DNA of 64,000 nucleotides from Desmonostoc vinosum HA7617-LM4. GTDB lineage: Bacteria > Cyanobacteriota > Cyanobacteriia > Cyanobacteriales > Nostocaceae. Location of the stretch: the NCBI GenBank assembly GCA_019359515.1, contig JAHHHC010000018.1, positions 1 to 64,000 on the forward strand. The letters run 5' to 3'. Under the pieces are notes generated by a model. It was not told the DNA's origin, ran no database searches, and was given only the letters and a program-made list of their open reading frames with translations. Positions 689-37,767 of this stretch are shown piece by piece (position 1 is the first letter of the stretch; every line of letters starts with the position of its first letter). Made by a program: the position numbers and the translations under genes.

Positions 689-1579
689 TCACTCATGCTG
701 TCTGCGTTTCTGCGTGAGATAAACTGACCTCACATAGTTTGTTAACTCAAAACCGTTAGCCATCAGCACCTCCCGCACTTGTTCACTTAACAAAGCAGTA
801 AATTCTTCAGCACCTGCCCCTAGAGGGCCATTCAACGGTTCCCCATCCCTAACTATTGCAGGATGAGAATAAATCTCTACCAAATCTGTTTGAATTTGAG
901 GAATCAGACCAAGTAAATATTCCTCAGTCACACTACCAGTTTGCAATAACCCGTAAACCCGATGAGCAAAACTAATACCCTGAGATTTCAGCAAACCCTC
1001 ACCATAGTCGCGTAGCCTGCCAAACACACCCGACCAAACCAGCTTAGTTAATAAACCACCACGGTCAAATTTGAGATTCATTCCCAGTTCTTCAGCTGGC
1101 AGACGGATAAACTTAATCTCAAACTCCTGTGCTAACTCCACCAAAATACCCAACACCACAGGATGGACATGTAAATGCAAATGCCCGTCTACATGGGAAA
1201 GGTGCAGCCCAGACTCACGAAACTTTGTCAACTGGGCGCGAATTTCTTGGCGTAGTTCCTCACGGGCAGCGCGATGGAATTGATAGCGTAACCCAGCTTG
1301 TAGGGGGCTATCTGGAAAATTCCCCTCAGAGTCAACCAAATGGGGAATTTGCTCAGGTGGTAGAACTGACCGACCACACACTAAAACTAAGTGTAAACCG
1401 ACACCCAAATTTGGATGAGTTCGAGCCAAAGCGATCGCCTCATCAGCAGCATCACCACTGACCATTAAACTAGTGCTAGTTAGCACACCTTTTTCATGCG
1501 CTGTAATAATAGCTTCATTTACACCGCGAGAAAAACCGAAGTCATCACCATTGATAATTAAGCAACGGGCGTGGGGCAT
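689..1579 (-). CDS. hpnK: HpnK, hopanoid-associated YdjC/ChbG-type deacetylase
   Basis: The 296-residue protein has the YdjC fold signatures: the metal-binding pair in INGDDFG (D12, D13), a histidine near residue 63, and the HVDGHLHLHVHP block (129-140). HpnK is known from Burkholderia genetics as the step that deacetylates N-acetylglucosaminyl bacteriohopanetetrol, giving the glucosamine-linked hopanoid. It acts at the cytoplasmic membrane on a lipid substrate. It lies just downstream of hpnJ on the same strand, with about 70 bases of GATGAGGG-type repeat between them, so the two are probably co-transcribed. An ordinary chitooligosaccharide deacetylase is the alternative, but the hpnJ neighbour favours HpnK. 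Confidence 0.85.
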   Translation of the reverse strand: MPHARCLIINGDDFGFSRGVNEAIITAHEKGVLTSTSLMVSGDAADEAIALARTHPNLGVGLHLVLVCGRSVLPPEQIPHLVDSEGNFPDSPLQAGLRYQFHRAAREELRQEIRAQLTKFRESGLHLSHVDGHLHLHVHPVVLGILVELAQEFEIKFIRLPAEELGMNLKFDRGGLLTKLVWSGVFGRLRDYGEGLLKSQGISFAHRVYGLLQTGSVTEEYLLGLIPQIQTDLVEIYSHPAIVRDGEPLNGPLGAGAEEFTALLSEQVREVLMANGFELTNYVRSVYLTQKRRQHE

Positions 1580-1620
1580 GGGGATGAGGGGAAGATGAGG
1601 GAGATGAGGGGGATGAGGGA
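1580..1620. repeat. Short GATGAGGG-type tandem repeat
   Basis: Degenerate 8-10 base units based on GATGAGGG fill the short gap between hpnJ and hpnK. The same motif occurs at 50509-50575. It resembles the short tandem repeats scattered through Nostocales genomes. Confidence 0.6.
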
Positions 1621-1648
1621 GAAATAATCAATTCCCCAAAAAACATTG

Positions 1649-3094
1649 CTAAATCGATTGTGCGTGTGCCTCTGCTTGAGTGCGACGTTCTTTCAAATAC
1701 GAGAAGAACTCCCCACCTTCACGAAGGCGACGTACTAACATTTGTCTGTCTGTGAGCATTTCTCGCACAATTGGAATGATGGCTTGAGGACGGAAGTAAA
1801 ATTTACGATACATACGCTCAACTGCATCCTCAATTTCAGCGCTGGAAAGATGGGGATATTGCAGTGTGGAGGTTTGAATACCAGAGTTAGCGACTAAAGA
1901 TTGGTTCGTAAACCAACCGTTGGCTTTGGCTTGTTCATAAAGTTCTGTGCCAGGATAAGGCGCAGCGATGGAAACTTGAATTGTATGCGGACTCAATTCA
2001 CAAGCAAAGCGAATTGTCTCTTCTACGGTTTCTTTGGTTTCAATAGGCAACCCGATGATAAAAGTACCATGAACAGTAATACCGAGTTTGCGGCAATTGT
2101 TCATAAATTCCCGCGCTACTTCTAGCTTGATGCCTTTTTTGATGCGGTTGAGAATTTCCTGATTCCCAGATTCAAAACCGACAAGCAGCAATCGTAAACC
2201 GTTGTCACGTAACTGTTTGAGGGTATCATAGTCTAAGTTGGCACGGGCGTTGCAGCTCCAGGTGAGCTTGAGTCGCTTCATGTGTTCGCTAATGGCGATC
2301 GCTCGATGTTTGTCAATCGTAAAGGTATCATCATCAAACATATACTCCCGTACTTTGTCACCAAAGATGGCTTTGGCCTCTACCATCTCACGTCCCACAA
2401 CTTCGGGGCTTTTATGGCGATAAAGATGACCGCCAATTGTCTGCGGCCACAAGCAAAACGTACATTTTGCTGGACAGCCACGCCCAGTGTAAAAGGAAAT
2501 GTAGGGATGCAATAAGTAGCCAATGAAATATTTTGTGATATCCAAATCACGGGCATAAGTTGGCAGAACGCTGGGCATAGCATCCCAATCATGAATCAAT
2601 GCGCGTTCCTCATTGTGGCGAATACTACCATGCTTGTCCCGGTAGCTCAAACCTTTGATTTCTTCCCAAGCTTGACCTTGGGCTAGTTCCTTGCAGGTAT
2701 AGTCAAATTCATTACGACACACAAAGTCGATAACTGGATTATCTTGTAGTGTCTCTTGTGGAAGTACTGCCACATGTGCCCCAACAAAACCAATCTGCAC
2801 ATCTGGATTTGCCGCCTTGATTGCCTCAGCACACTTGACATCATTAGTCAATGAGGGTGTGCTAGTGTGCATGATTACTAACTCATAATCTTGAGCAATT
2901 TGTAGCACATCCTCCACAGTCTGATTATGGGGAGGAGCATCTACTAGCCTACTGCCTGGAACCAAAGCGGCAGGTTGTGCCAGCCATGTAGGATACCAAA
3001 AGGAAGTAATTTCGCGCTTAGCTTGGTATCGAGAACCCGCACCACCATCAAATCCATCAAATGAAGGAGGACTAAGGAATAAAGTTTTTTTCAT
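1649..3094 (-). CDS. hpnJ: HpnJ, hopanoid-associated B12-binding-type radical SAM protein
   Basis: The 481-residue protein begins with a cobalamin-binding-like Rossmann domain (about residues 1-140) and continues into a radical SAM barrel with the cluster motif CPAKCTFC (C207, C211, C214). The opening MKKTLFLSPPSFDGFDGGAG is characteristic of HpnJ. Genetic work in Burkholderia places HpnJ after HpnK, converting the glucosamine head group of bacteriohopanetetrol to the cyclitol ether; the chemistry is inferred. It is the upstream member of the hpnJ-hpnK pair. The ATG is the first residue of the conserved N-terminus. There is no frameshift and the cluster cysteines are intact. Confidence 0.87.
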   Translation of the reverse strand: MKKTLFLSPPSFDGFDGGAGSRYQAKREITSFWYPTWLAQPAALVPGSRLVDAPPHNQTVEDVLQIAQDYELVIMHTSTPSLTNDVKCAEAIKAANPDVQIGFVGAHVAVLPQETLQDNPVIDFVCRNEFDYTCKELAQGQAWEEIKGLSYRDKHGSIRHNEERALIHDWDAMPSVLPTYARDLDITKYFIGYLLHPYISFYTGRGCPAKCTFCLWPQTIGGHLYRHKSPEVVGREMVEAKAIFGDKVREYMFDDDTFTIDKHRAIAISEHMKRLKLTWSCNARANLDYDTLKQLRDNGLRLLLVGFESGNQEILNRIKKGIKLEVAREFMNNCRKLGITVHGTFIIGLPIETKETVEETIRFACELSPHTIQVSIAAPYPGTELYEQAKANGWFTNQSLVANSGIQTSTLQYPHLSSAEIEDAVERMYRKFYFRPQAIIPIVREMLTDRQMLVRRLREGGEFFSYLKERRTQAEAHAQSI

Positions 3095-3119
3095 AATTTT
3101 TAGTCAGTGTTCAGTTATT

Positions 3120-3217
3120 AGTTACTTGTACTGAGCGAAGTCGTACCCTTACGCGGTAGCAAGCTACGCGTAGCGTCTTTGACAAAAGAAGTATCAGTTA
3201 CTTGTACTGAGCGAAGT
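3120..3217. repeat. Direct repeat pair around a palindromic repeat
   Basis: GTTACTTGTACTGAGCGAAG occurs twice (from 3121 and 3197). Between them is a GC-richer stretch with CTACGCGTAG, the TAGCG/CGCTA motif shared with other dispersed repeats in this window (9.6, 12.9, 18.1 and 22.4 kb). It occupies most of the gap between hpnJ and the squalene-synthase-like gene. Confidence 0.6.
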
Positions 3218-3329
3218 TGAAATATCAGTGGTCAGTTACTAGTAAGCTAGTCATTCAAATTGCATCTTTGCGTCCCCGCGTCTAGTGCAAGGCACCTCAG
3301 CTGAGTTTAATTCACTGACCACTGAATAC

Positions 3330-4160
3330 TTAGCTAGCTTTTAAGTTCACACCAATCAACTGTTCAATGAGTGCAACCACATCGCTGCGGCTGAGTTTTT
3401 CTTTACCATTTGCCAAAGCATCTAGAGTACCATGAGCTAAAGTTAAGGGTATTTGGCAAAAATCTAAAGCCGGCCCCGTAGGAAGTGCTTGAGTGTAAGC
3501 TTCTGCTAGTGCTAGATTACGCCGTGCATACTCTTGCATATCTATTGCACTCCAACCTTCAGGAAAGAAGTCCACACCGCGTCCTAAATCTTCATTGTGG
3601 TTACGCAAGATGTTTACTGCTTGTAAACCACGACCAAACCCAATTGCTTGAGTCCGGTTTGTTTGCGTACCATCATACCAAGCCCATAAATCTGAGAGCA
3701 ACAATCCTACCGCGCCAGCAACCCCAAATGTATAACAATCCAAGTCAGATTCTGTATAAATTTTCCAGTTTATTTCTGCCCAGTGAGCCATCCTATCTGC
3801 CATAGCGGCAGTAGCATCCCAAATTCGAGGTGCAATGGTTTCAGGTGCTAATATTGACCATTCCCTGATCCGCACGCTCACTTCTTCTAAGGAATTCTCA
3901 TACCCACTAAATCCAGCAGAGAATGCATCTACTGCAAAGCCATCCACTCCGGCTTGTAATGTTAAGCTAATCGTTCGTAGTAACTTCGTTTTCGTATGGT
4001 TATCTAGTTTTGGGTGATCTTCTATTTCATCAATGGCACGCATACACAAATATGCTGATGCAACTGCTTCCTGTAAGCCTGGCGGTAAAAGACTAATTGG
4101 GATATAAAAAGTCCGGCTAGTTTCTTTAAGGATTTGCAATGCATCTCTACGTAAATCCAT
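3330..4160 (-). CDS. Squalene/phytoene synthase family protein
   Basis: The 276-residue protein belongs to the trans-isoprenyl diphosphate head-to-head condensing family. The first aspartate motif is DEIED (44-48). The second region reads NILRNHNEDLGRGVDFFPEGW (about 183-203), where the first Asp of the usual RDxxED is Asn. The start is placed at 4160 because GAGGGGAG precedes that ATG; an upstream in-frame ATG at 4193 has no such site. Next to hpnJ and hpnK, a squalene-forming role for hopanoids is plausible, by one enzyme or in an HpnC/HpnD-like two-step reaction. Phytoene synthase is the alternative. The exact product cannot be told from sequence alone. Confidence 0.8.
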   Translation of the reverse strand: MDLRRDALQILKETSRTFYIPISLLPPGLQEAVASAYLCMRAIDEIEDHPKLDNHTKTKLLRTISLTLQAGVDGFAVDAFSAGFSGYENSLEEVSVRIREWSILAPETIAPRIWDATAAMADRMAHWAEINWKIYTESDLDCYTFGVAGAVGLLLSDLWAWYDGTQTNRTQAIGFGRGLQAVNILRNHNEDLGRGVDFFPEGWSAIDMQEYARRNLALAEAYTQALPTGPALDFCQIPLTLAHGTLDALANGKEKLSRSDVVALIEQLIGVNLKAS

Positions 4161-4699
4161 GTTTTCACTCCCCTCTTGATTTTTGCACCACATGAAGTTG
4201 GCAGTTTTTTGATGATACTGGATATAGTTTTGACTAAACCTTAAAAACTATAGATACACTAGAATTTCATCTAAAAATTAGTAGTTTTAGGTATCACAAT
4301 TAACAAAACTCTCAATTTTCTCAAAGTCAAATCTTAGTATATAGGGTTTTAAGCGCAAAAACGTGTGGGCTATGGTTTGGGACATGCACCTGAGTATTTT
4401 AGGGGAAACATCAACAATTATGGTATTATTCAATGCAATATCTGGAATTTTTTTCAGAAACAAAAACTAAATTCACAGGTTTAAGGTCTTTTAAATCTGC
4501 GTTCATCTGACTGAAGAGTCACAGCATGTCCCTTTAAAGGCTTATTGTTTGGCTGACCGGAGATAGAAATACGCGAGAATGCAGAGAGATTTTAATAATA
4601 AACTTATAGTTTTTATACAGACAATTGAGCAAAAACCCATGCAGTAATGCTGCATCTGTACACAATCTTTAACTAATATTGATTATATTTCTCAATTTG
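4161..4699. other. AT-rich intergenic region
   Basis: No reading frame with recognisable features was seen. The stretch next to 4160 should carry the promoter of the squalene-synthase-like gene, but no convincing -35/-10 pair was identified. Confidence 0.5.
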
Positions 4700-28938: not shown

Positions 28939-31371
28939 TTACTTAACAATATCCTTGCGTTTTTGTAACCACATAGCAATTACTAAATAAACAATTGTGT
29001 GTGCAAGCAACAATCCCCAACTTAAAAGCAGATTTTGCAATGTATTATCAAACATTGGCAGCTGTTTAATTGATGAACTTATATCATTATCCTCACTTGT
29101 GATTACTGGAACTAAAAGATTCACCTTGCCTAATATTCCATAAGCCCCAACTGACCAACGACTTAACATTAACCAAGAAATATATTCACCCACCCCTTTC
29201 ATGTCAAACAACACCCCAGCAAAAATAATCTGAGGTAACAACAACAGAGGTAACGCACTATTAGCTTGAGTGCTATTCTTGGTACTAGCTGATACCAATA
29301 ATCCTAAACTTACAGAAGTCAAGATAGTTAAAAATGTAGTAACAAAAACTCCTAAAAACCAGGGAACAGGAATCAAGAGTGGTTGATAATTAATTGTTAA
29401 TTCAGGAGTGGGAGAACTAAAGCACAAAATAATCACAAGAGAGATTAATATGCTTTGTATAACAGCTAATCCACCTAAAGTTATAATTTTTGATCCTAAA
29501 TAAGCTGTTAAACTCAAATTCACTAACCTCTCACGCAAGTAAATTGCAGATTCCTTAACAATTTCTTGCAGAGAACTAGCAAGTCCTATCCAAATTGCTG
29601 CACAAGTAAAGACAAATAAAACTCTTCTTGCTAAAGATGCATATTCCAAATCAACTTTAGGGTCAAAGGTAGGAATTAAAAAATCTTTATTTAGAATCGC
29701 CAAAGTCATTAAAGCAATACCAATTGGTGCAGTTAGCAAAGATAAAACTAAGTAAATAGTATCTCTCTGAATTAGTTTGATATATCTTTGAATAAGAATT
29801 GTAATTTGTTGAAAAAATGATCGATTAACTGGTTTAGGAGATGAGTTATTTTCTTGCTTCTCCTCACTTAAGCGATTATTAATATATTCTTTTTGATAAT
29901 CTGATTCATAATACTTTTCAGCTTCTTTAATTACAGCCTCTTTAGTTTCTAGTTTTATATAAACATCAGCAAACTCTTCACTATTAATTTGGAAAAAATC
30001 AGCAGCTTTATTTGGTGGGCCAAAATAACAAAGATTTCCGCCTAAACCGAGAAACACTAGAAAATCACATATAGTAATGTTACTGGTTGCGTGAGTAACC
30101 AAAATAACTGTGCGCCCTTCATTGGCTAATTTCCGCAGCAGTTGCATAATTTTTTTATCCAATCCTGGGTCAAGTCCAGAAGTTGGTTCATCGAGAAAAA
30201 ATAATTTTGGATCTGCTAATAGTTCAACTCCGATACTTACCCGTTTTAACTGTCCCCCACTTAAGTTTTTGACTAGGGTATTTTGACGCTCAGATAACTC
30301 TACTTGTTGTAATGTTTTTTGCACAACTTCTTCAACGTTAGTATCATTAGGAAGTCGGAGTTTCGCAGCATAATAAAGAACTTCCTTCACTCTTAAGCCA
30401 GTATGAACAGTATCTTGTTGAGGAACATACCCGATCAGGTTTCGATAAATATTAAAGTTAGTTCTTAAATTTTCCCCATTCAGATAAACTGTACCTTCAT
30501 TGGTTGATTCAATACCTAATAAAGCTTTAAGCAAAGTAGATTTTCCAGCCCCACTACCTCCAACTACTGCAACAAACTCCCCTGGTTCAATCACTAAAGA
30601 AATATCATTAAGTAATCTAATCGGTTGTTTATTTTTATCTTTAATAGTTCTAACAAGATGTTGAACATCAATGCGAATATTATCTCCACTATCCGCGAGA
30701 ACTAATTCATCCCCATATAATACAAAAGTATAAGGGCCAATCTGAATAATATCACCTGCTGACAAAACCACTGAATTGGTAACTTTTTCCCGATTCACAA
30801 ATAAACCATTAGTACTATGGTCGCGCAGCAGATAATGTCCCTGACTATCTCTTTCAATCGTGGCATGACGACGAGATATCATCGGCGCATCTAATTCTAA
30901 ATCTGCATTAGCACTACGCCCTAAAACGATAGGCTTATTTTGGTTTTTTAGATAAATAGAGCGTTTCTTTAAAGGTGTTACAGGTTGATTAATACGTGGT
31001 TCTGTGTAGGTTAAAATTGCCCAATTTTGGGGATTATTAGCAATTTTAATTTCACTGCCATTCTCTAAACGAAAACCTTTTTTGGGCGTAATTACAGTAT
31101 TATTAACAAATAGTTTATTAGTACTTGGTTTTTCTCCATCTCCATCATAAATATAATAAGAGTCGTTTTGCTTTTTGATAGTAGCTTGACAACGACTTAC
31201 CACTGACCAATCTTCAGGGATTTTCAATCCTTGGGGTAGAGGGAGGTTTGGCTCTCTTCCTAAGATATGCACATCAGCAGTTAAATCAAATGAAAGAGAT
31301 TTTCCTTTATAATTAATCTCAAGTCGGGGATTATTACTTAAAAGAGCTGTACGACCAAATTGGTTAGTCAT
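28939..31371 (-). CDS. FHA-FHA-ABC transporter (ABCG-like, ATPase-permease fusion)
   Basis: The 810-residue protein carries two FHA domains (about 15-120 and 137-225; the second has the canonical LGRSANADLEL, SRRHAT and STNGLFVN). An ABC ATPase follows (about 235-460), with Walker A GGSGAGKST (271-279), signature LSGGQ (370-374) and Walker B KLFFLDEPTSGLD. The C-terminal ABC2-type membrane domain (about 525-805) has six or so spans. FHA domains bind phosphothreonine, so transport is likely gated by a Ser/Thr kinase. The first FHA motif is weaker (LGREPN). The substrate is unknown. It is transcribed toward the GT-C run, convergent with 27585. Confidence 0.88.
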   Translation of the reverse strand: MTNQFGRTALLSNNPRLEINYKGKSLSFDLTADVHILGREPNLPLPQGLKIPEDWSVVSRCQATIKKQNDSYYIYDGDGEKPSTNKLFVNNTVITPKKGFRLENGSEIKIANNPQNWAILTYTEPRINQPVTPLKKRSIYLKNQNKPIVLGRSANADLELDAPMISRRHATIERDSQGHYLLRDHSTNGLFVNREKVTNSVVLSAGDIIQIGPYTFVLYGDELVLADSGDNIRIDVQHLVRTIKDKNKQPIRLLNDISLVIEPGEFVAVVGGSGAGKSTLLKALLGIESTNEGTVYLNGENLRTNFNIYRNLIGYVPQQDTVHTGLRVKEVLYYAAKLRLPNDTNVEEVVQKTLQQVELSERQNTLVKNLSGGQLKRVSIGVELLADPKLFFLDEPTSGLDPGLDKKIMQLLRKLANEGRTVILVTHATSNITICDFLVFLGLGGNLCYFGPPNKAADFFQINSEEFADVYIKLETKEAVIKEAEKYYESDYQKEYINNRLSEEKQENNSSPKPVNRSFFQQITILIQRYIKLIQRDTIYLVLSLLTAPIGIALMTLAILNKDFLIPTFDPKVDLEYASLARRVLFVFTCAAIWIGLASSLQEIVKESAIYLRERLVNLSLTAYLGSKIITLGGLAVIQSILISLVIILCFSSPTPELTINYQPLLIPVPWFLGVFVTTFLTILTSVSLGLLVSASTKNSTQANSALPLLLLPQIIFAGVLFDMKGVGEYISWLMLSRWSVGAYGILGKVNLLVPVITSEDNDISSSIKQLPMFDNTLQNLLLSWGLLLAHTIVYLVIAMWLQKRKDIVK

Positions 31372-31932: not shown

Positions 31933-32772
31933 ATGAACCGGCGCTATCAAAAAAGTCTTTTGACTTTAGCGTCTTTGCTGTTTGCCGTTGGTAGTTTTGT
32001 GTCCTTATCTGCTTGTAGCAATACAGACAACCAAGCGACCAACAATACACCTACAGAACAGTCAACAGCTAGTCAGACGGAATCACCAGTAAAGACAACA
32101 TCTGATACAGGAGCAGACAGTAAGGAAATCAGCCCTGTTACTAGTTTGCTACCAGGAAACGATCGCACAGACTCTGATCCATTAAAATTACTCCAAAATT
32201 CACAAATCAAAAAAGAATTAAATCTCACTGACGAGCAGAGTACAAAAATCAAGCAAATAGAAGAAGATTTTCGTGCTTCATTGCGTCAGAGAGTATCTGG
32301 AGTGAGTCTTAAAGGGCTTGATGAAAAACAGCAAGAACAGAAAATTACAGAAATCAGCAAGGATTTAGACAAGCAAATTCAAGACACTCGCACCAAAGTT
32401 GGAGCAGTTCTCACACCAGAACAACAAACACGCTGGAAGCAAATTGCTCTGCAAATATATGGTTGGGGAGTTTTGACCAAAGATGATTACTCTGCTGATT
32501 TAAAGCTTACCCCAGAGCAACTTCAAAAAATGAATCAACTGCGCGATGAGATGGTTCAGAAAATGAGGGCAAATTGGCAAAATCCAGACAATAGCAAGCA
32601 ACCACGCACTCAGGTAATTGCTCAAAATCGCCAAAGACTTGAGCAAATTGTTAAAAATACTAATGAGCAAGCTTTGGCTGTTCTCACACCAGAACAAAAG
32701 AAAAATCTAGAAACTCTTAAAGGTAAAGAGTTCAAGCTAGATCCTACATCATTACCATCTCCACCCTCATAA
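31933..32772 (+). CDS. LTxxQ-motif (Spy-like) lipoprotein
   Basis: The 279-residue protein has a lipobox, LSAC, with C28 as the predicted lipidated cysteine, then a low-complexity Thr/Ser/Asn-rich linker (about 29-75). The helical domain has repeated LTxxQ motifs: LTDEQSTKIKQIEEDF, LTPEQQTRWKQIA, LTPEQLQKMNQLRDE and LTPEQKKNLETL. These resemble Spy/CpxP periplasmic chaperones. A strong GAGGAGAG precedes the ATG. It lies upstream of, and on the same strand as, the radical SAM cluster, but about 170 bases of spacing leaves shared function unproven. Confidence 0.78.
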   Translation: MNRRYQKSLLTLASLLFAVGSFVSLSACSNTDNQATNNTPTEQSTASQTESPVKTTSDTGADSKEISPVTSLLPGNDRTDSDPLKLLQNSQIKKELNLTDEQSTKIKQIEEDFRASLRQRVSGVSLKGLDEKQQEQKITEISKDLDKQIQDTRTKVGAVLTPEQQTRWKQIALQIYGWGVLTKDDYSADLKLTPEQLQKMNQLRDEMVQKMRANWQNPDNSKQPRTQVIAQNRQRLEQIVKNTNEQALAVLTPEQKKNLETLKGKEFKLDPTSLPSPPS

Positions 32773-32939
32773 GTTAAACCAAATAAATAGACATAAATCA
32801 ACGTAACTACGGAGATTGTTGTTTGTGATTTGTTGTTTGTGATTTGGACATACCAGCCAAAAAGTCATCAACAATTATCAACAGTCTCCTCTACAAATTA
32901 TGTTTGTTCATTCTGCACAGGACTAGAGAGATAGAAGCT

Positions 32940-33968
32940 ATGAAATTTTGGACACAAGAAGAAAACATAGATATCAAGCAATTAACTAAGTCAGAACTTA
33001 TAGAATTGCTACAGCTAGAAGGAGAAATGCAGCAAAGTTTGTTCCAGAAAGCTAGAGTCATGCGCCGTCTTCATGGAACAGATAAAGTCATGTTGCGAGG
33101 CGTAATGGAAATTTCTAATTACTGCCAAAAAAACTGCGACTACTGTGCTATGCGGGCAGCAAATAAAGGTTTAGAAAGATATCGATTGAGCGCCGAAGAA
33201 ATTTTATATCTTGCCGAAGAAATTAAAAAAACTAATATTATCTCCACCATTTTTCTCCAATCTGGACAAGACCCCAATTGTGATCCCATATTAGAAGAAG
33301 TCATCCCAGAACTTAGAAAATTAAATTTAAATGTTCTTTTATGCTTGGGGGAAAGACCAAGAGAAGTTTATTCTAAATTTGCTGAACTAGGAGCAGATTC
33401 TTACATTCTCAAATTTGAAACTTCAAACCCTGATTTTTACAAAGAAATCGCTTATACATCTCTCCAAAAAAGACTTCAATGTCTTAGCTGGCTTCAAGAA
33501 GCTGGATTTAAAGTTGGCACAGGAAATATTGTTGGTTTACCCAATCAAACCTTAGATACCCTTGCCGAAGATATTTTACTAGCAATTAAACTCCAGCCTG
33601 ATTTTGTCAGTTCTTCTCCATTTATTCCCAATCAAAATACACCTTTAGAAAAATTGTCTTATGGCAATATTAATTACACTTTGAATACAATGGCGATTTA
33701 TCGCCTAGCGCTACCATCGGCATTAATTCCTACAGTCAGCGCTCTAGAAAAGATTCAAAAACATGGCCAACTCATGGGATTAAATGCAGGAGCTAATGTA
33801 CTGACTATCAACTTTACTCCCACAGGATACCGTCAAAAATTCCGTATTTACTCTGAAAAACGCTTTGTAGTCAGCTTAGACCATGCTCTCAAAACTATTG
33901 AAGAGGCAGGTTTACAAGTTCATCTACCCTCTCAAGAAACAAGCTTAAACTATTCGCTCATTTCTTAG
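32940..33968 (+). CDS. HydE-like radical SAM protein
   Basis: I start at the ATG at 32940 (AGAGAG upstream), giving 343 residues. The [4Fe-4S] motif is CQKNCDYC (C62, C66, C69). The barrel contains LQSGQDPN, LCLGERPREVY, ILKFETSNPDFYKEI, GNIVGLPNQT, SSPFIPNQNTPLE, GANVLTINFTPTGYR and PSALIPTVSALEK. This is close to HydE, the radical SAM maturase of the [FeFe]-hydrogenase H-cluster, and to the BioB/PylB group. HydE has LRHET where this protein has LKFET. Cyanobacteria are not known to carry [FeFe]-hydrogenase, and no hydF or hydG is seen, so another substrate is likely. It is the first enzyme of a co-oriented set with a methyltransferase, an EamA exporter and a HemN-like enzyme. Confidence 0.82.
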   Translation: MKFWTQEENIDIKQLTKSELIELLQLEGEMQQSLFQKARVMRRLHGTDKVMLRGVMEISNYCQKNCDYCAMRAANKGLERYRLSAEEILYLAEEIKKTNIISTIFLQSGQDPNCDPILEEVIPELRKLNLNVLLCLGERPREVYSKFAELGADSYILKFETSNPDFYKEIAYTSLQKRLQCLSWLQEAGFKVGTGNIVGLPNQTLDTLAEDILLAIKLQPDFVSSSPFIPNQNTPLEKLSYGNINYTLNTMAIYRLALPSALIPTVSALEKIQKHGQLMGLNAGANVLTINFTPTGYRQKFRIYSEKRFVVSLDHALKTIEEAGLQVHLPSQETSLNYSLIS

Positions 33969-34042
33969 AGGTAAAGCTAAATCAAAATTCTACAGATTAT
34001 AGTCTGTTTACTGTTCCATCAATTGCAAAAATCATCATAAAA

Positions 34043-35155
34043 ATGAGTGAAACAATACGGACACGAAAAGCAGAGCGCACTTTGCTTTTGATTGTCTTGT
34101 CAATTTTAACTGCAATCCTGGCAGTAGTTTTATACACATTTAATCCCTGGACAACTCAGTCGAAAAACTCTTCATTTGACTGGGTGCAAATTACTTCCCA
34201 AAAATCGATCATTCACGTTGGAAGTAATGATTCTTTTGCTACAACTCAAGATGGCATCCAAGCTGGAAAATTGGTTCTAGATTTTTTAGAAAATAAACAA
34301 GTAAACTCCGGCAAAGCCGCAATCCAAATTTACAATAAAATCATTCCCAGAGAGAATTATGGTGGAGAATACTCAGCTCTACAATGGTTCTGTCAATATC
34401 TGTTAGCTACGGATAGTGAAAAGCAAAAATATTTATCTGATAAGTTTGTTGCCAGTTTTTATAACTTTTTTGCTGCCAACGACTTCGCCAACTTAAAAGA
34501 ATACATTCAGCGCAAATATAAATTAAAAACATTTGCCGATCAAGATAACCAAGCTGGTCAAGACCGTAAAGCATCTCTAGAAGACTTTATTCTTTTTAGC
34601 AATCCTAGAAGAGAAGAATGGGAAAAAACTAGCAAGATTCTCAGTTCTCTTAACTTAAAAGCTGGGCAAAATATCGCTGATATTGGGAGTGGCCCAGGAT
34701 ATTATACGTTCAAATTCTCTCAATTAGTTGGTGAAAAAGGAAATGTGTTTGCGATTGATACTGTGCAAAATCATCTTAATTATGTCAACAGTACCAGTCA
34801 AAAACTTGGCATCAAAAATATTAAATCCGTTCATACTGGTGGTGACACAATTGGATTGAAGGCCAATCAAGTGGATTTGGCTTTTATGTGTTCTCTTTAC
34901 CATAACATCTACGCTATGTCTACTAATTATGATATTGATAACTTTGTTAACAGTATCAAAACTGCATTGAAAAATAAGGGAACTTTAGTTGTTGTTGATA
35001 ATGGTTTAGTTAAAGATTCTGAACTTCCTTACCATGGGCCATACATTGCCAAGGAACTAATTATTAGTCAATTGCAAAATTATGGCTTCAAGTTTGTGAA
35101 AGATTACGCTTTTATTCCGCAAAGGTACGTTTTAGTTTTCCAGAAAACTACTTAG
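34043..35155 (+). CDS. Membrane-anchored SAM-dependent methyltransferase
   Basis: The 370-residue protein starts with a basic segment (RTRKAER) and one membrane span (about 13-33). A linker region of unknown fold follows (about 45-185), then a class I methyltransferase domain (about 190-365) with motif I IADIGSGPGYYTFKFS (211-226) and motif II acid VFAIDT. The positive-inside rule places the catalytic domain on the far side of the membrane, unusual for a SAM enzyme. It lies 74 bases after the HydE-like gene and 75 before the exporter. The substrate is unknown; processing of the cluster product is the reasonable guess. Confidence 0.75.
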   Translation: MSETIRTRKAERTLLLIVLSILTAILAVVLYTFNPWTTQSKNSSFDWVQITSQKSIIHVGSNDSFATTQDGIQAGKLVLDFLENKQVNSGKAAIQIYNKIIPRENYGGEYSALQWFCQYLLATDSEKQKYLSDKFVASFYNFFAANDFANLKEYIQRKYKLKTFADQDNQAGQDRKASLEDFILFSNPRREEWEKTSKILSSLNLKAGQNIADIGSGPGYYTFKFSQLVGEKGNVFAIDTVQNHLNYVNSTSQKLGIKNIKSVHTGGDTIGLKANQVDLAFMCSLYHNIYAMSTNYDIDNFVNSIKTALKNKGTLVVVDNGLVKDSELPYHGPYIAKELIISQLQNYGFKFVKDYAFIPQRYVLVFQKTT

Positions 35156-35230
35156 CTTGCTTGTAACAATTTCAGGAATCGGTAGTATTGATTCCTGAAA
35201 TACAAAAATCAATCATACACTAAACTAAAA

Positions 35231-36109
35231 ATGGATTTGCGAGCAATTGGGATTGCTGCTGCTTTGGGTTCTGCTGCTTCCTGGGCGATAGGATCAATCC
35301 TATTTAAACAATTAGGGGAACATATTCCACCTTTAGCAATGACTTTGGCTAAAGGGGCAGTTAGTGTTATTTTGTTAAGCTTAGCTCTAGTTTTTACTGG
35401 TTACAATGACATCCAATCACAGGCGTTAATCCTACTAATATTTAGTGGATTACTAGGTATTAGCTTAGGCGATACTTTCTTTTTTGAAGCTCTGCAAGAT
35501 TTGGGGCCACATGCTCTAGTCATGTTATTAATGATCGGAGAAGTTTTAACTGTATTTTTAGCAGTATTTCTGCTTGGTGAAACGCCAACATTAATTGCAT
35601 GGTTTGGTATTGCCCTAGTTATCTTCGGTATTGGCGTAGTTCTGTCTGCAAAGTTATCAGGAGAAATGCAATTCTCTAAATGGAGAGGAATTGCCTTCGG
35701 ACTTTTATCAGTTTTGTGTATGTCGATATCGATGATTGTTGCTAAGAAAGGCTTAGAATCGGTCTCAACAATCCAAGCAACATTCATTCGCATGTTGTCT
35801 GGAACCACGGGAATACTTTTTTTTGGTACAGTTACCCAACGTCTAGGACGCTGGATGATTCCGTTTCGCGATCGCAATCTAGTTTACTTTTTCTTGGTAT
35901 CAGTGTGCGTCATCACTTTTGGAGGTTTTTGGCTGTCATTGGTGGCAATTAAATATGTAGATGTTTCTGTTGCCAATACATTAGGCTCAACAGAACCTCT
36001 GTTTATTTTACCTTTAGCGGCAATTTTCCTCAAAGAAAAAATTGCTTTTAGATCAGTGCTAGGTACAATACTCACACTAATCGGAATTATTTGTATTTGT
36101 GTAAGTTAA
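35231..36109 (+). CDS. EamA/DMT family transporter
   Basis: The 292-residue protein has two tandem EamA units (about 7-138 and 150-290) and about ten membrane spans. GSAASWAIGSILFKQLGEHI and SLGDTFFFEALQDLGPHALV lie in the first unit; STEPLFILPLAAIFLKEKI lies in the second. DMT transporters of this type often export metabolites or amino-acid derivatives. Its position between the methyltransferase and the HemN-like gene suggests it moves the product or a precursor of this pathway. No ribosome binding site is obvious before the ATG. Confidence 0.85.
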   Translation: MDLRAIGIAAALGSAASWAIGSILFKQLGEHIPPLAMTLAKGAVSVILLSLALVFTGYNDIQSQALILLIFSGLLGISLGDTFFFEALQDLGPHALVMLLMIGEVLTVFLAVFLLGETPTLIAWFGIALVIFGIGVVLSAKLSGEMQFSKWRGIAFGLLSVLCMSISMIVAKKGLESVSTIQATFIRMLSGTTGILFFGTVTQRLGRWMIPFRDRNLVYFFLVSVCVITFGGFWLSLVAIKYVDVSVANTLGSTEPLFILPLAAIFLKEKIAFRSVLGTILTLIGIICICVS

Positions 36110-36315
36110 TGACAGGGCATAGGAAACAGTGACTACCAAGCCACTCACAAGCGATGATTTTTTTAGTAAACAATTGTTTCAGTAATTATTTGCATAATTT
36201 AATTTTTATATTTACCATTTTCAAGATTTTTAAGTTCGTAAATATGGTATTAATACAATAATTATAAGATTTAGTTTCTGGAAAAATTAACTTCTTAAAA
36301 ATAGGAGAAAATTAA

Positions 36316-37767
36316 ATGACAATTGCTCCAAATAAAATCACGAACCGTAAAGAGTTACTAATTGCTAGAGCGAAAGAAAGAGTTGCAGATTTAAAACGAT
36401 TACAAGAGGCAGGATTAATTTGCACTCACGGAGATTTTTTCCCATCCGTGCATTATCCGCCGATCACGATGTATTCTCCGATTACTGAAGAAGAATTATT
36501 TCAGAGTTATACTCTCCCTGAAGATGGGTTATTGGATGTCTATATCCATATTCCATTTTGCCGGCAACGTTGTATTTTCTGCCATTATCCAGTGCAATTA
36601 GGAGAACGAAATCCAGAAAAAGACCAGTACCTAGACGCATTGGAAAAAGAAATGGATCTTTACATGCGGCGGTTAGGAATTGACAAAATTAAAGCTAGAT
36701 CAATTCTGGTAGGAGGAGGAACACCAACTTATCTAAGTTTAGAGCAATTAGATAAGTTTTTAAATTTCTTTGTGCAACGGGTAGATTTATCAACTTGCAC
36801 TCAATTTAACTACGATGTTGATCCCGTAACCCTAATTGGTGAAGAAGGTAGAGAGAGATTACGCTTAATGCGTTCTTATGGTGTTGATCGTCTCACCATA
36901 GGATCTCAATCTTTGAATGCAGATACCCTCAAGAAAATGAATCGTCATCACGGCGTCAAGGAGATACTAGAATCTATTGAAAATGCCAAGGAGTTTGGCT
37001 ATCAAGTCAATATAGAATTCATTTTTGGCTATCCTGGGCAAACTTTAGATAACTGGATTGAAGTCATGGAACATGCCGTGTCTTTAGGAACAGAAGAAAT
37101 CCAGTTATATCGACTGAAAATTGAAGCTTATGGAGATTTTCAAGGCCCAATTAAACGCTTGAGCGAAAGACAACCAGATGAATTACCAACTGTCGAAGAA
37201 ACCTTGATGATGAAACAGTTGGCAATCGATATTTTGAATGAACATGGTTATCATGAAAATCTCCGTCGAGTATTTACAAAAGAACGCAAACATTACTCTC
37301 ACTATGCTGATAATCAGTGCTGCGGATTGTTAGATCAGGTGGGATTTGGTTTGACAGCTTTTAGTAGTCTCAGAGATAGATTTATACTCAACACACAAGA
37401 TTTTGACGAATATTACTCTATGATTGCGGCGGGAAAAATGCCAATCAATAGAGGTATAGTCAGAAATCAAGAAGAACAAATGCGATGGGCGATTATTCTG
37501 CCTTTAAAGAATCGAACTGTGTGGAAAAGTTACTTTGAAAAAGTCACAGGTGGAGTCTCCCTGAATCACGTTTTCCGTAACAAAATTGAAAATCTGAAAT
37601 CTTTTGGATTAATTGTTGAAGATGAGCAAAAAATTGAATTAACAAAACTTGGTGCATTCTTTGCTGATGAAGTTGTACAACAATTTCATCACTCTGATTA
37701 TGCTCCTTTCTCCCGCGATGAATATGCCCAAGGACTTTTGTATCCTTATAATAACTGTGAAGCATGA
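36316..37767 (+). CDS. HemN-like radical SAM protein
   Basis: The 483-residue protein has the cluster motif CRQRCIFC (C82, C86, C89), then GGGTPTYL (about 134-141) and the HemN-type ITIGSQS-like stretch (LTIGSQSLN). The HemN C-terminal domain occupies about 370-475. Residue 90 is His rather than the next Cys-rich element of true HemN. AGGAGA precedes the ATG by about 10 bases. HemN-like proteins include coproporphyrinogen dehydrogenase, HemW, ChuW/HutW haem enzymes and class C radical SAM methylases/cyclopropanases. Next to a methyltransferase, an exporter and a HydE-like enzyme, a biosynthetic role is more likely than haem synthesis. A GGGAATA repeat follows the stop. Confidence 0.8.
   Translation: MTIAPNKITNRKELLIARAKERVADLKRLQEAGLICTHGDFFPSVHYPPITMYSPITEEELFQSYTLPEDGLLDVYIHIPFCRQRCIFCHYPVQLGERNPEKDQYLDALEKEMDLYMRRLGIDKIKARSILVGGGTPTYLSLEQLDKFLNFFVQRVDLSTCTQFNYDVDPVTLIGEEGRERLRLMRSYGVDRLTIGSQSLNADTLKKMNRHHGVKEILESIENAKEFGYQVNIEFIFGYPGQTLDNWIEVMEHAVSLGTEEIQLYRLKIEAYGDFQGPIKRLSERQPDELPTVEETLMMKQLAIDILNEHGYHENLRRVFTKERKHYSHYADNQCCGLLDQVGFGLTAFSSLRDRFILNTQDFDEYYSMIAAGKMPINRGIVRNQEEQMRWAIILPLKNRTVWKSYFEKVTGGVSLNHVFRNKIENLKSFGLIVEDEQKIELTKLGAFFADEVVQQFHHSDYAPFSRDEYAQGLLYPYNNCEA

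Follow-up and report, generated by a model that had tools for sequence, protein, structure and literature searches.

A conserved set of radical SAM, methyltransferase and transporter genes in Desmonostoc vinosum suggests an undescribed modification in the cell envelope

What joins two radical S-adenosylmethionine (SAM) enzymes, a membrane-anchored methyltransferase and a transporter in the genome of the cyanobacterium Desmonostoc vinosum HA7617-LM4? The genes lie within the first 64,000 nucleotides of contig JAHHHC010000018.1 (the window), where they share one orientation on the plus strand at positions 32940-37767, as an initial annotation had described. They encode a HydE-like radical SAM enzyme (32940..33968; Radical_SAM and BATS domains), a class I methyltransferase (34043..35155; Methyltransf_31, E 2e-10, and other matches), an EamA transporter of the DMT (drug/metabolite transporter) type (35231..36109; PF00892, E 2.7e-43, in two stretches) and a HemN-like radical SAM enzyme (36316..37767; Radical_SAM and HemN_C domains), with gaps of 74, 75 and 206 nucleotides between them. 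Family scans upheld these four assignments, including the two repeats of the EamA protein. All four genes are thus present, and a likely fifth member had been overlooked, a gene at 31933..32772 on the plus strand for a putative periplasmic protein of the LTXXQ (CpxP/Spy) type. The gene block suggests an undescribed chemical modification of something in the cell envelope.

The grouping was examined in a sample of 60 genomes, comprising 36 from the same family (each of another genus) and 24 from other families of the order. Close homologs of the HydE-like, methyltransferase and HemN-like genes co-occurred in the same four genomes (the window's own, G000, and G031, G008 and G033) and in no others, with identities in these genomes of 68-80%, 55-82% and 70-88%, respectively. 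The order HydE, methyltransferase, EamA, HemN was the same in all four, so that the proposed linkage is conserved, and because close homologs share the same four of 60 genomes in the same order, the grouping goes beyond chance. Spacing is tight in G033, with gaps of 1, 11 and 60 nucleotides; in G419 (L044) the HydE-like and methyltransferase genes overlap by 8 nucleotides and the subsequent gaps are 3 and 38 nucleotides. Promoter-like sites were about as numerous as expected from shuffles (20 found versus 22.0 expected) and terminator-like sites numbered 8 versus 4.6 expected; neither count defines the operon structure. One further genome of the family, G006, carries a divergent HydE-like gene only, in a different context. 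Its neighbours there (41% identity for the HydE-like gene; L040:512-6003) resemble, on inspection by eye, an AMP-ligase/reductase and an O-methyltransferase, so that a different pathway is probable.

In a wider sample of 386 genomes of the phylum, the HemN-like gene was detected at E 1e-90 or better in 8. Four of these eight, G231, G281, G415 and G416, belong to a family that lies outside the class and measure about 2 Mb each; from their size and place, we suspect them to be gut-type non-photosynthetic relatives. A scan of named genomes recovered the gene in two Verrucomicrobia and in Elusimicrobia, Omnitrophota and Oscillospiraceae (54-67% identical), as well as in two cyanobacteria. When the phyla or order around four such records were sampled, 2/288, 5/285, 1/245 and 2/198 genomes were positive, the centre genome being counted each time. 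The distribution is thus rare and patchy. The positive genomes of these samples together with G031, G008, G419 and G420 form the set of 22 genomes used below, to which Bradyrhizobium plasmids come in addition; the orthologs span cyanobacteria, their small-genome relatives, Verrucomicrobia, Omnitrophota, Elusimicrobia and one member of the Oscillospiraceae. A Peptostreptococcus match (L051, 32%) was dropped as not orthologous, and a search of phage records with the HemN-like protein gave no match at 1e-40. The Elusimicrobia genome G1403 holds three HemN-like copies (L093:8434-18866 and L094:1187-2599), two of them in a stretch where a branched-chain-type ABC importer is flanked by a pair of EamA genes of the cluster type. 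We conclude that this is very likely a conserved system; no paper describing the gene set was found in open-licence full texts, the papers listed on HydE in cyanobacteria had no bearing on it, and the literature yielded little on HydE active-site residues or SAM transporters. The initial proposal of an undescribed pathway is well supported by the conserved co-occurrence, and neither radical SAM enzyme fits its canonical role.

The canonical explanation would have H-cluster assembly (HydE) and heme synthesis (HemN) joined here by chance. It has similarity at the family level in its favour, and it is already contradicted by the data that follow, which leave it with next to no credence. The HydE-like protein shares with HydE the fold family and the CX3CX2C [4Fe-4S] motif (C62, C66 and C69; 33123..33146, plus strand), and aligns with a solved HydE at 229 bits. 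Its start was taken as the ATG at 32940, an alternative TTG at 32844 giving 32 more residues. In contrast to true HydE, it stays under the cut-off of TIGR03956 (243.7 versus 254.6 bits), which its relatives in G130 (255.8 bits) and G278 (256.0 bits) narrowly exceed. In a phylogenetic tree, a branch supported at 100/100 splits 22 cluster rows from 9 true HydE, and the same split was again supported at 100/100 when G006 and a second row of G871 were added. The rows of G006 and of Bradyrhizobium, the latter on a very long branch, fall on the cluster side, whereas the long-branched extra HydE of G871 sits with true HydE, though no HydF was found in that genome. Two positions that are invariant in 9/9 true HydE, T134 and M291 in the Thermotoga protein, are occupied by I/L/M and T, respectively, in 21/21 cluster proteins. 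HydF exceeded its cut-off in 8 of 23 genomes searched, all eight of which carry a second, higher-scoring HydE. In the window genome no HydF reached the cut-off (best 99.4 versus 325.55 bits); HydG and hydrogenase structural genes were not searched genome-wide. Judged by clade, score and residues, the HydE-like protein is not HydE.

Of the 22 genomes, only the Oscillospiraceae genome G422 lacks a HydE-like protein of this separate clade, which thus accompanies the HemN-like gene in 21, and in 16 of the 22 the two genes lie within about 11 kb of each other. HydE may be able to form an adenosyl-sulfur bond; a literature search found nothing linking S-adenosyl-cysteine with HydE. In two Omnitrophota (G944, L152:8477-12111; G423, L076:6410-10078), the HydE-like match falls in a long open reading frame (ORF), about 810 residues, whose neighbour resembles a DinB-type polymerase on inspection by eye.

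The HemN-like protein departs from its namesake in a similar way. It reached 168.1 bits against TIGR00538, for which the cut-off is 324.95, and C71 (the fourth cysteine), F310, Q311 and I329 of E. coli HemN, which we take to be important positions, align with Y, Y, A and F. By score, then, it is not a coproporphyrinogen oxidase. Nor is it the only HemN/HemW candidate of the genome, which has two further HemN/HemW-like loci. The protein can be aligned with 1OLT and with NocN, and the radical SAM cysteines (C82, C86 and C89 of the CX3CX2C motif; 36559..36582, plus strand), Y76, the GGGT motif, R192 and R210 are invariant in 24 sequences. In NocN, the described contacts to the two SAM molecules include a tyrosine stacking on the second SAM and an aspartate touching both (PMC12871812). 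The stacking tyrosine corresponds to Y76, and the radical SAM core and the Tyr, Arg and GGGT two-SAM positions are common to the class C methylases NosN and NocN and to the protein studied here. By contrast, two second-SAM contacts of NocN, Tyr96 and Ser225, are replaced by Leu and Gln, and similarity to E. coli HemN begins at residue 47 here and at residue 68 in NocN. Because the Cys, Tyr, Arg and GGGT positions are kept relative to NocN, two-SAM chemistry of the class C type is plausible for the HemN-like protein.

A precedent for pairing such an enzyme with a methyltransferase is the CC-1065 cyclopropanase, in which the HemN-like class C enzyme C10P joins a SAM methylene radical to the substrate and the class I methyltransferase C10Q, with its SAM-binding motif, acts on the resulting SAM adduct (PMC6050322). 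A class I methyltransferase gene was found within about 10 kb of the HemN-like gene in 15 of the 22 genomes, by Pfam or by close similarity to the window protein. That the set performs just such a two-component methylene transfer or cyclopropanation, with a second step that is incidentally membrane-anchored, appears distinctly improbable to us. The consulted passages on C10P/C10Q make no mention of C10Q export (PMC6050322), whereas the methyltransferase described here is predicted to be exported, belongs to exchangeable subfamilies and is accompanied by HydE-like and EamA genes and, in some lineages, by the LTXXQ gene.

The methyltransferase of the window begins with a strong hydrophobic segment (residues 15-29; 34085..34129, plus strand; mean hydropathy 3.15 over 15 residues) with a net charge of +2 before and 0 after it. 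Since this predicted anchor is preceded by basic residues, the catalytic domain is predicted to lie outside, and we regard an extracytoplasmic location as likely. SAM-binding motif I (DIGSGPG; 34679..34699, plus strand) is well kept, with D213, G215, G217 and G219 invariant in 7 aligned sequences. The relatives in G033, G424, G706 and Bradyrhizobium look secreted by eye. In addition to the 15 genomes named above, a class I methyltransferase stands beside the HydE-like gene in G278 and G1403, where the N-terminal segments were judged by eye. A hydrophobic segment at the N-terminus is found in all of these methyltransferases but the G422 protein, the weakest being the signal-like sequence of G424 (1.55).

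The kind of methyltransferase, by contrast, changes from lineage to lineage. According to Pfam, Omnitrophota and Elusimicrobia have UbiE-like proteins (G423 and G944) or PrmA-like proteins (G896, and three in G777) in its place; further substitutes are a member of the isoaspartyl methyltransferase family PCMT in G871 and, in G421, larger proteins that are extended at the N-terminus. A PCMT gene with a signal-peptide-like start was observed 4.6 kb upstream of the HemN-like gene (L091:3997-4701); outside the cytoplasm, a PCMT would need an exported methyl donor. For the N-terminal part of the L047 proteins a metallophosphoesterase was considered by eye, and Pfam, run on one of the two, showed none.

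Exported methyltransferases were also counted with a screen that combines the methyltransferase motif with a hydropathy rule, in 22 loci (403 kb, window excluded) and, for comparison, in 398 kb of control sequence made up of 20 stretches, for which 14 of the 21 genomes with these loci were used. The loci contained 16 methyltransferase-motif ORFs; the rule classes 13 of these as exported, and inspection by eye adds two (L050 and L090). The controls contained one, exported by the rule, in G1403, so that exported methyltransferase-motif ORFs are enriched at the loci. The 13 ORFs are not independent events, because the loci include orthologs, and amount to about six by kind. The screen misses some true methyltransferases, namely the L074 protein and one of L049. 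Two candidates were set aside: the ORF at L093:12476, which is a Phenol_MetA_deg protein, and an ORF of L094 beside the HemN-like gene that is 33% identical over 327 residues to an L047 methyltransferase protein in tblastn, has no Pfam match and was left uncounted.

The transporter, too, is tied to the HemN-like gene. A profile built from 17 cluster EamA proteins, from 17 of the 22 genomes, was searched against 46 genomes at E 1e-40. It recovered the cluster subtype in 19 of the 22 genomes with the HemN-like gene, at 279-428 bits, including G896 and G706, which had contributed no sequence to the profile, and in 0 of 24 genomes without that gene (best 198.4 bits). All other matches listed stayed at or below 201 bits, leaving a gap between 201 and 279; the subtype was missing from G130, G278 and G422. 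Within these 46 genomes the EamA protein is, by profile score, a subtype of its own, tied to the HemN-like gene, in contrast to other DMT/EamA transporters, with which it has in common two EamA repeats and a length of about 292 residues here. Calling it an exporter, as the initial annotation had done, extrapolates from its family, and the direction of transport is putative.

What might such a transporter carry? Among its relatives are SAM transporters, and it could simply export SAM, or exchange it for S-adenosylhomocysteine (SAH), with the radical SAM enzymes serving to prepare an acceptor for methylation or acting separately. Presumably, the Rickettsia SAM transporter RP076 belongs to the DMT family. 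RP076 is functional in E. coli (PMC7758712), and the EamA protein PA4834 of Pseudomonas aeruginosa resembles a SAM uptake transporter, though its authors judge SAM transport by PA4834 itself unlikely (PMC4597187). None of the four NCBIfam matches obtained is a model named for SAM transport. Four loci, each from a different lineage (L048, L074, L093 and Bradyrhizobium), have amino-acid-type ABC importers close to the HemN-like gene, with the binding proteins of the first three checked by Pfam and their remaining genes by eye. These importers could recover SAH or methionine under SAM export; more generally, their presence would agree with a role in taking up a spent product that resembles an amino acid. 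Plain SAM export, however, leaves unexplained why two radical SAM enzymes accompany the transporter in nearly all genomes, and we consider it quite unlikely.

That differing methyltransferases stand beside one constant core of HemN, HydE and EamA genes suggests a common need of these enzymes which the core serves. What class I methyltransferases share is a donor of the SAM type, which makes such a donor a candidate for the supplied item, and it is plausible that the transporter supplies the methyltransferase. Since export of plain SAM would need no pair of cytosolic enzymes, a bolder reading gives the two radical SAM enzymes the task of building a compound from SAM; that they make the donor is the most interesting step and the least proven one. 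We tentatively favour an envelope alkylation module as the best explanation of the whole, with a probability of a little over one in three. In such a module, the HydE-like and HemN-like enzymes would build a small, probably SAM-derived compound in the cytosol, the EamA protein would carry it across the inner membrane, and anchored or secreted class I methyltransferases would use it outside on an envelope or exported target, possibly assisted by the LTXXQ protein. By analogy with C10P and C10Q, the HemN-like enzyme could generate a methylene radical from a second SAM and join this radical to an acceptor; a class I methyltransferase might then use the resulting SAM adduct, an alkyl-sulfonium. 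The data themselves establish that the gene set exists and co-occurs, that its cofactor motifs are conserved and that N-terminal anchors or signal peptides are predicted. We infer the action of the methyltransferase outside, the direction of transport, the compound, its target and the chemistry. The most specific form of the idea, a dedicated extracytoplasmic alkyl donor (a modified sulfonium, namely an alkyl-SAM adduct) that the HydE-like and HemN-like enzymes make from SAM and that is exported by EamA and used by changing secreted methyltransferases on envelope proteins or polymers, seems unlikely to us as it stands.

Several observations weigh against an envelope alkylation module. Export was called from hydropathy and not by a signal-peptide program. 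The methyltransferase of G422 looks cytosolic, with a ribosome-binding-like stretch directly before its ATG and no hydrophobic segment; this genome also lacks the HydE-like gene and the EamA subtype, a pattern that fits the model. No methyltransferase was found in five of the 22 genomes. In G420 there is none within 17 kb, and in G231, G281, G415 and G416 its place beside the EamA and HemN-like genes is taken by between one and three membrane-anchored proteins, 319-358 residues long (L060:6330-9344, L061:4809-6751, L062:8260-9336 and L063:6171-7199). Pfam and a PDB profile search returned no credible family match for these proteins, and an FkbM-like methyltransferase identity considered for them is not claimed. 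G130 and G278 have an anchored methyltransferase and a HydE-like gene without the EamA subtype, and the HydE-like gene lies away from the HemN-like gene, elsewhere or on another contig, in G278, G423, G944, G421 and G1403. How often the HydE-like clade occurs without the HemN-like gene was gauged only in 56 relatives, with one divergent case (G006). In the HemN-like protein, the bridging aspartate that touches both SAMs in NocN and HemN (Asp196 of NocN) is an invariant glutamate, E234, in all 24 sequences. In addition to these findings, there is a general consideration: exported class I methyltransferases without this gene set occur in other bacteria, where SAM might arrive otherwise.

The LTXXQ gene (PF07813, E 1.4e-12) is the next gene upstream of the HydE-like gene in 7/7 cyanobacterial genomes, in the sense of the class, that have the HemN-like gene. 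A weak LTXXQ match, at 22.3 bits under the cut-off of 24.3, was noted in the Omnitrophota genome G896 (L154:5365-6102), two genes upstream of the HydE-like and EamA genes.

The HemN-like ortholog also occurs (61% identity, annotated as coproporphyrinogen oxidase) on four Bradyrhizobium plasmid records of nearly equal length, from peanut isolates, that are predicted to be conjugative. On the one examined in detail, relatives of all five genes lie in one stretch (NZ_CP094524.1, 157884-171209; L149:118-13443), with a methyltransferase that has a signal-peptide-like start (51%), a DMT transporter (51%) and a HydE-like protein (31%). An LTXXQ relative heads the cluster (31% over 209 residues). Its annotated start seems late, an upstream frame encoding a signal-peptide-like stretch, and the link rests on BLAST because Pfam gave no match for the extended protein. 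We regard it as likely that the LTXXQ protein belongs to the set in cyanobacteria and Bradyrhizobium. The same stretch holds an annotated ABC ATPase, an FtsX-like permease, an HlyD adaptor and an amino-acid ABC importer, and a TolC-type gene lies a few kilobases upstream.

This plasmid brings up the alternative that the set makes a SAM-derived natural product or metallophore, built by the HydE-like and HemN-like enzymes, secreted by EamA and finished by the methyltransferase at the membrane or outside. The ABC/FtsX and HlyD genes with a TolC-type gene kilobases off would suit such a product, and LTXXQ relatives include metal-stress proteins. EamA proteins can be linked to the secretion of SAM-derived metabolites, a part in nicotianamine secretion having been proposed for PA4834 (PMC4597187). 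Against a single product, however, stand the several methyltransferase subfamilies that accompany the same core; furthermore, inspection by eye of the N-termini of the window ORFs, with no search aimed at such genes, revealed no peptide synthetase, no polyketide or nicotianamine synthase and no TonB receptor. We consider this explanation possible and somewhat unlikely. The original suggestion of synthesis and export of a small metabolite thus still stands as a possible account; with the methyltransferase predicted outside and exchangeable subfamilies beside the same HemN/EamA/HydE genes, weight shifts toward a role in providing extracytoplasmic methyltransferases with a donor or another compound that they share.

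Among the other neighbours, a divergent gene on the minus strand (28939..31371) encodes an ABC transporter with an FHA domain (FHA, E 3e-31; ABC_tran; ABC2_membrane) and may be an accessory. A homolog lies near the set in 6/7 cyanobacterial genomes. It is directly downstream of the HemN-like gene in G130 and G278; of the five remaining genomes, four, including that of the window, have it close to the set in divergent orientation, in G031 one gene away. Fasciclin-domain proteins are encoded downstream of the HemN-like gene in two cyanobacteria (L037:12469-13134 and L038:16132-17650, with Pfam run on one each); in the window, the HemN-like gene is not followed directly by a fasciclin gene. The window opens with hopanoid genes (689-4193), for HpnK and the radical SAM protein HpnJ, both above NCBIfam cut-offs, and for a squalene/phytoene-synthase-type protein.

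To our knowledge, how secreted class I methyltransferases obtain their methyl donor outside the cytoplasm is an unanswered question, and no paper on the source of that donor was found among open-licence full texts. Across several phyla, and on plasmids predicted to be conjugative, the gene set ties exported methyltransferases to two radical SAM enzymes and a transporter, and because of this tie the donor question can be tested with five genes. For genome annotation, a protein called HydE or coproporphyrinogen oxidase in a genome without HydF may signal other chemistry. If an exported, SAM-derived donor were indeed made and used in this way, it would amount to a second, exported SAM economy in bacteria.

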